NCBI RefSeq assembly: GCF_030867145.1
Contig: NC_134433.1
Location: 10,863,216-10,927,215, forward strand
Direction of reading: 5' to 3'
DNA from: Opisthocomus hoazin
Lineage: Eukaryota; Chordata; Aves; Opisthocomiformes; Opisthocomidae
Length of the DNA stretch: 64,000 nucleotides
Shown here: positions 27,428 to 36,613 of the stretch, one piece after another
How the letters are laid out: the number at the start of each line of letters is the position of its first letter
How positions within the stretch are numbered: position 1 is the first letter of the stretch
Translations under genes and position numbers: made by a program
Notes under the pieces: model-generated
Told to the model about the DNA's origin: nothing
Databases searched by the model: none
The model's input: only the letters and a program-made list of their open reading frames with translations

Positions 27428-36613
<9,186 letters not shown>

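Follow-up and report, generated by a model that had tools for sequence, protein, structure and literature searches.

A 3-bp length difference between the DC5 lens-enhancer cores of the tandem delta-crystallin genes of the hoazin

The tandem ASL/delta-crystallin locus

The window, a 64-kb stretch of Opisthocomus hoazin DNA (64,000 nucleotides) that contains no N, carries two tandem ASL/delta-crystallin genes, ASL1 and ASL2, both on the minus strand:

27428..36625, minus strand: ASL2 (delta2-type) gene, from the inferred ATG exon (36625) to the stop codon
42341..50653, minus strand: ASL1 gene (delta1-type N-terminal arm), from the inferred ATG exon (50653) to the stop codon at 42343-42341

In each gene, 15 coding exons were located downstream of the inferred ATG exon, around which the two copies are about 90% identical across about 400 bp. 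Across the 415 contigs of the genome (1.48 Gb), a third ASL copy was not found, 25 of 25 matches falling within ASL1 or ASL2 among the matches listed. Several CR1-like retroelement fragments lie around and between the two genes (40062-42029, 50129-50491 and 54892-55954, from open reading frames); three CR1-like pieces of the window have nucleotide matches in 8 of 20 10-kb genome samples (7569 of 200000 bases) and protein-level matches in 9 of the 20.

ASL2 aligned to delta2 crystallin entries across all 462 query residues and, compared with the delta1 and delta2 structures (1hy0, 1xwo, 1i0a; 1hy1, 1k7w), displays the delta2-type arm LWGGRFSG. At the start of the exon that follows the ATG exon, delta1-type entries read GDKLMGGRFVGSTDPIMQMLSTS (1hy0, 1xwo) or GDKLLGGRFVGSVDPIMEILSSS (1i0a). 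ASL1 has M at position 5, as do 1hy0 and 1xwo, whereas 1i0a has L; its V10 and S21 match all three entries, and T78, encoded in the exon following the intron that holds the DC5 core, matches 1hy0. Since ASL1 carries delta1 marks both before this intron (M5, V10 and S21) and after it (T78), we assign it as the delta1-type copy. Unlike 1hy0, which has L, I and Q, ASL1 keeps W, F and H in ISEEW, GVFVV and HTANERR; the Q that replaces the HTANERR histidine in 1hy0 was thus not found in ASL1. Relative to the same five structures, M4, A6 and R13 are specific to ASL1.

The ASL1 exon at 49007-48813 (minus strand) bears its own unusual N-terminal-arm changes relative to ASL2; in this exon, the two copies are separated by 10.5 replacement and 3.5 silent differences. 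Counted across residues 1 to 65, ASL1 differs from delta2 at 14 positions and from the 1u15 row at 14, and ASL2 differs at 8 and 12, respectively, 1u15 being an engineered loop mutant. For this reason, 1hy0 rather than 1u15 serves as the delta1 reference. Among the PDB entries, 1XWO is from goose and 1TJW from duck (PMC2779060). At the exon 11/12 junction (45036 and 44365, minus strand), the ASL1 exon ends in TG and that of ASL2 in AG, such that the codon divided by the intron would be TGC (C) for ASL1 but AGC (S) for ASL2.

The catalytic motifs that we checked are present in ASL1 and ASL2 alike. In general, enzyme activity is described as retained by delta2 only (PMC2779060, PMC9012887). The goose protein 1xwo has a delta1-type N-terminal arm in its solved sequence, and goose delta-crystallin was assayed as an active lyase, with an E294L mutant retaining about 10% of wild-type activity (PMC2779060). 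Since ASL1 has the catalytic motifs checked and the goose protein is active despite its delta1-type arm, the contrast implied by an “enzymatically intact copy”, which the earlier note suggested might be favoured in the lens, is weakened and should be considered unsettled.

The DC5 core in the two copies

In both copies, the intron that carries the DC5 core is flanked by the GDKLW and ISEEW exons, and we take it to be the third intron, counting one non-coding first exon as in chicken. The intron and core features are as follows:

33437..34417, minus strand: DC5 intron of ASL2, splice ends GT/AG
47992..48812, minus strand: DC5 intron of ASL1, splice ends GT/AG
33808..33840, minus strand: long-form DC5 core of ASL2, AAATATCCATTGTTGTTGCTCATCCACCATGGA, 30/33 identical to the probe of PMC3713010 and 25/28 to the start of the 31-mer of PMC4330359
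48337..48366, minus strand: DC5 core of ASL1, 3 bp shorter, from alignment with ASL2
33827..33833, minus strand: SOX heptamer CATTGTT of ASL2, identical to that of chicken DC5
48353..48359, minus strand: SOX heptamer CATTGTT of ASL1, intact, from sequence match
33829..33831, minus strand: TTG unit that ASL2 has and ASL1 lacks, from intron alignment, its placement arbitrary within TTGTTGTTG
33813..33824, minus strand: putative PAX6 half-site of ASL2, beginning 2 bp past the SOX heptamer as in chicken, with numbering derived from PMC4330359
48342..48353, minus strand: putative PAX6 half-site of ASL1, with the same letters as in ASL2, its first base being also the final one of the SOX heptamer

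The core reads CATTGTTGTTGCTC in ASL2 (33820-33833, minus strand) and CATTGTTGCTC in ASL1 (48349-48359, minus strand), with longer readings CATTGTTGTTGCTCATCCACCATGGA and CATTGTTGCTCATCCACCATGGA, respectively. With up to one mismatch allowed, ATTGTTGTTGCTC has a single match in the window, at 33820-33832 on the minus strand; ATTGTTGCTC is found at 48349-48358 on the minus strand and also at 51299-51308 on the plus strand, the latter away from DC5. These matches, together with the intron alignment, bear out the 3-bp difference between the lens-enhancer cores that the earlier note had claimed. Its location of the ASL1 core, 48346-48360, was right as to place and a few bases too wide. Given that the 3 bp correspond to one unit of the TTGTTGTTG run, writing the indel as GTT or as TTG is arbitrary.

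When the whole genome was searched for the short core with up to two mismatches, only the ASL1 and ASL2 places appeared among the matches listed, and a backwards control pattern also gave two matches there; the short-core count alone is therefore uninformative, and it is by position and flanking sequence that the element is identified. A second place for the long core in the genome-wide search, on contig C41, proved to be a lone 21-base match to the ASL2 intron (E 2e-4), which we took as chance. A DC5 pattern covering both the chicken and the window letters gave 0 matches in the prokaryotic (genome_contigs) and 0 in the viral (viral_contigs) collection. A looser pattern returned 34 prokaryotic and 3 viral stretches, which were likewise taken as chance after BLAST of both introns against these 37 stretches, the matches listed being short, with a best E of 0.001, and many of them lying at the pattern itself.

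The identification of the element as DC5 held up against the published chicken sequences. The chicken DC5 element is given as the 31-bp TTCATTGTTGTTGCTCACCTACCATGGATCC (PMC4330359), to which ASL2 is identical at 25 of the first 28 bases, or at 25 of 31 when the final TCC is included; this TCC, which mismatches, was left out of the former count as a possible cloning end. A SOX2-PAX6 probe, AAATATTCATTGTTGTTGCTCACCTACCATGGA after a leading GGG, comprises the DC5 core plus five extra upstream bases (PMC3713010), and ASL2 matches it at 30 of 33 positions. ASL1 and ASL2 share with the DC5 of chicken delta1-crystallin the same intron position and the same CATTGTT SOX heptamer. The SOX-PAX spacing of ASL2 equals that of chicken, whereas ASL1 is shorter by 3 bp and does not keep the native SOX-PAX distance. 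Accordingly, the claim that spacing is altered in ASL1 was sustained: the 3 bp belong to the distance from the SOX heptamer to the PAX half-site, which begins two bases past the heptamer in ASL2 and on its last base in ASL1.

Three core differences from chicken are common to ASL1 and ASL2, one preceding the SOX site and two within the PAX half-site. As a consequence of these shared differences, the CACCT box, which we take to be the deltaEF1 site of DC5, is gone from the core of both copies, reading CATCCACC here and CACCTACC in chicken. This difference, which touches the PAX half-site and a possible repressor site, is common to 33808-33840 and 48337-48366 (minus strand); ZEB proteins bind CACCT (PMC8304685). 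The PAX half-site is degenerate in both copies and differs from chicken at positions 7 and 9, with T7 and C9 here against C7 and T9 in chicken (numbering derived from PMC4330359). In section 15 of that paper, a C9 point change left cooperativity unlowered; T7 has no mention in sections 14 and 15. Neither the half-site differences from chicken nor the missing CACCT, seen in both copies, had appeared in the earlier note.

The substitution-free block and gene conversion

Alignment of the DC5 introns of ASL1 and ASL2 covers 821 aligned bases with 64 substitutions and 7 indels, ASL1 being the shorter side at all 7. The longest substitution-free run spans 276 aligned bases and includes the core, in agreement with the near-identical block previously noted in the same intron of both copies:

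33675..33970, minus strand: substitution-free block of ASL2, from intron alignment
48221..48496, minus strand: substitution-free block of ASL1, from intron alignment
33691..33707, minus strand: 17 bp CTTCCTATAGCTTAAAT of ASL2, missing from ASL1, beside a second CTTCCTATAG, from intron alignment

The two copies of the block differ by two indels, the 3-bp one of the core and the 17-bp one, such that the description “exactly 3 bp” is true of the core and not of the whole block. When substitutions were shuffled, 0 of 20000 trials reached 276 bases (mean 57, largest 165), and a run of this length around the core fits constraint on DC5.

A different origin of the near-identity is recent gene conversion rather than selection, with the 3-bp and 17-bp indels being young and perhaps polymorphic, a reading that we consider possible, though on the doubtful side of even, and that is compatible with our preferred explanation as regards function. 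The ASL locus is a conversion mosaic, in which introns 6, 7, 8, 12, 13 and 16 are 99.0-100% identical between the copies and introns 2, 5, 9 and 10 only 62-87%. Moreover, two neighbouring runs free of substitutions, 669 and 655 bases long and one base apart (47082-45758 in ASL1, 32213-30889 in ASL2), span exons and introns and point strongly to recent gene conversion. With conversion active at the locus, the identity of the block is therefore by itself no proof of constraint.

The distribution of indels speaks against conversion as the source of the block. Seven near-identical introns (4, 6, 7, 8, 12, 13 and 16) accumulate 16 substitutions and 0 indels over 2390 aligned bases, and the diverged intronic stretches (the flanks of intron 3, and introns 9, 10, 11, 14 and 15) 230 substitutions and 16 indels over 2194, introns 2 and 5 being left out of these sums, whereas the DC5 block has 0 substitutions and 2 indels over 276. 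Relative to the conversion-like tracts, the block thus has an excess of indels (one-sided Fisher p 0.011), in a comparison for which the block was chosen post hoc, for its lack of substitutions. In addition, delta1 marks survive in ASL1 on both sides of the DC5 intron.

SOX-PAX spacing and lens output

DC5 is the textbook case of a rigid SOX2-PAX6 enhancer grammar, so far known from engineered spacers. That activity depends on half-site spacing, as the earlier note stated, agrees with the rigid spacing seen in published gel shifts (PMC4330359). Shortening the DC5 gap by 1 or 2 bp left ternary SOX2-PAX6 complexes barely visible and binding competitive (section 14); lengthening it by 1, 2, 3 or 5 bp lowered cooperativity about 30-fold, and a gap of +4 bp preserved a weak residual cooperativity. 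The same paper reports that earlier spacers of 2, 4 and 10 bp eliminated cooperation. As in these mutants (-1, -2, +1 to +5), only the SOX-PAX distance is altered in ASL1; unlike them, ASL1 presents a natural -3, absent from the mutant set as described there, in one of two tandem genes. By analogy with the -1 and -2 data, the 3-bp loss should abolish SOX2-PAX6 cooperativity.

Since the printed chicken DC5 shares the spacing of ASL2, the length difference is most simply read as the loss of one TTG unit in ASL1; with chicken as the single comparator, an ancestral long core and one loss would be the simplest history. We propose that both tandem ASL copies inherited the avian delta-crystallin DC5 core in its long, presumably ancestral form, and that replication slippage probably removed one TTG unit of the TTGTTGTTG run in ASL1. 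Such a loss would leave the SOX site untouched and bring the PAX6 half-site 3 bp nearer, so that it would share one base with the SOX heptamer and be rotated around the helix by slightly more than a quarter turn; with the half-site so overlapped and rotated, SOX2 and PAX6 should not bind the ASL1 core cooperatively. The most likely consequence would be a weaker contribution of DC5 to the early lens activation of ASL1. Taken as a whole, the explanation that ASL1 lost TTG from an ancestral long core, and with it SOX2-PAX6 cooperativity and part of the DC5 contribution to lens expression, ASL2 keeping the chicken spacing, stands in our judgement at even odds of being right; its polarity would follow from chicken as one comparator, and the loss of cooperativity and the reduced enhancer activity are predicted by analogy with the mutants.

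A rather doubtful alternative is that the change is tolerated, a slippage indel with little effect. Either PAX6 would dock on the sequence as shifted, or lens expression would be sustained by the promoter together with nearby SOX/PAX sites, or the DC5 of this bird would already have been altered in both copies. Along these lines, TTGTTGTTG is a natural slippage run, neither copy has the chicken base at PAX position 7 or 9, both lack CACCT in the core, and the DC5 intron of both copies contains several further SOX-like cores (ATTGT or ACAAT), which might compensate for the change in the ASL1 core. Furthermore, on a crude count at the native PAX register, ASL1, ASL2 and chicken alike match 4 of 8 consensus positions, so that the ASL1 value is no lower than the others; in chicken, a register without known use reaches 5 of 8, which marks how crude the count is. 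PAX6 tolerates degenerate sites at the native register, and this speaks against a simple loss in ASL1. Set against a tolerated change are the very rigid spacing in vitro (gel shifts of PMC4330359) and a block otherwise free of substitutions across 276 aligned bases.

Returning to a functional loss in ASL1, the 3-bp difference is real, is located at the single place of DC5 where spacing is known to matter and yields a clear prediction, and from there we infer the step to lens output. The change may plausibly have moved lens output away from ASL1 and towards ASL2. We consider it improbable that it acted as a switch of lens crystallin supply from the delta1-type to the lyase-type gene, which would be the reverse of the chicken pattern. 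In chicken, the delta1:delta2 RNA ratio rises from about 7 in the central epithelium to 93.5 in the fibres of the centre (PMC9012887). If the switch were true, nature would be testing two spacings of one enhancer side by side within a single nucleus. One genome here holds two tandem-gene introns whose cores differ by spacing only, and a comparison of ASL1 with ASL2 within the same lens would show whether the in vitro grammar also applies in evolution. Also at stake is whether so slight a change suffices to shift crystallin recruitment between structural and enzymatic paralogues. In the open-licence PMC literature on DC5 or avian ASL1/ASL2, we found no report of a natural DC5 spacing change among the papers and passages listed, nor, in open-licence PMC, any paper on duck delta-crystallin gene conversion, on recovery of duck delta1 lyase or on swifts without delta-crystallin, some related titles in reference lists apart.

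The short core might instead be common among the delta1-type copies of many birds and obey another grammar, chicken being unrepresentative. Chicken is the single comparator, and even ASL2 already departs from the chicken probe at 3 of 33 bases; the ASL2 of the same bird, however, retains the chicken spacing, and we regard this reading as quite unlikely. Finally, although the indel sits in a 9-bp trinucleotide run, an assembly or sequencing error within the short repeat is very improbable in a 415-contig assembly that includes a 157-Mb contig, in a window without N and in a TTGTTGTTG run of just three units.

As a minor observation, a perfect 10-bp inverted repeat, CATTGTATAG/CTATACAATG, flanks the ASL2 DC5 core (33787-33796 and 33876-33885). 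Both arms contain SOX-like cores, and the same letters are present in ASL1.
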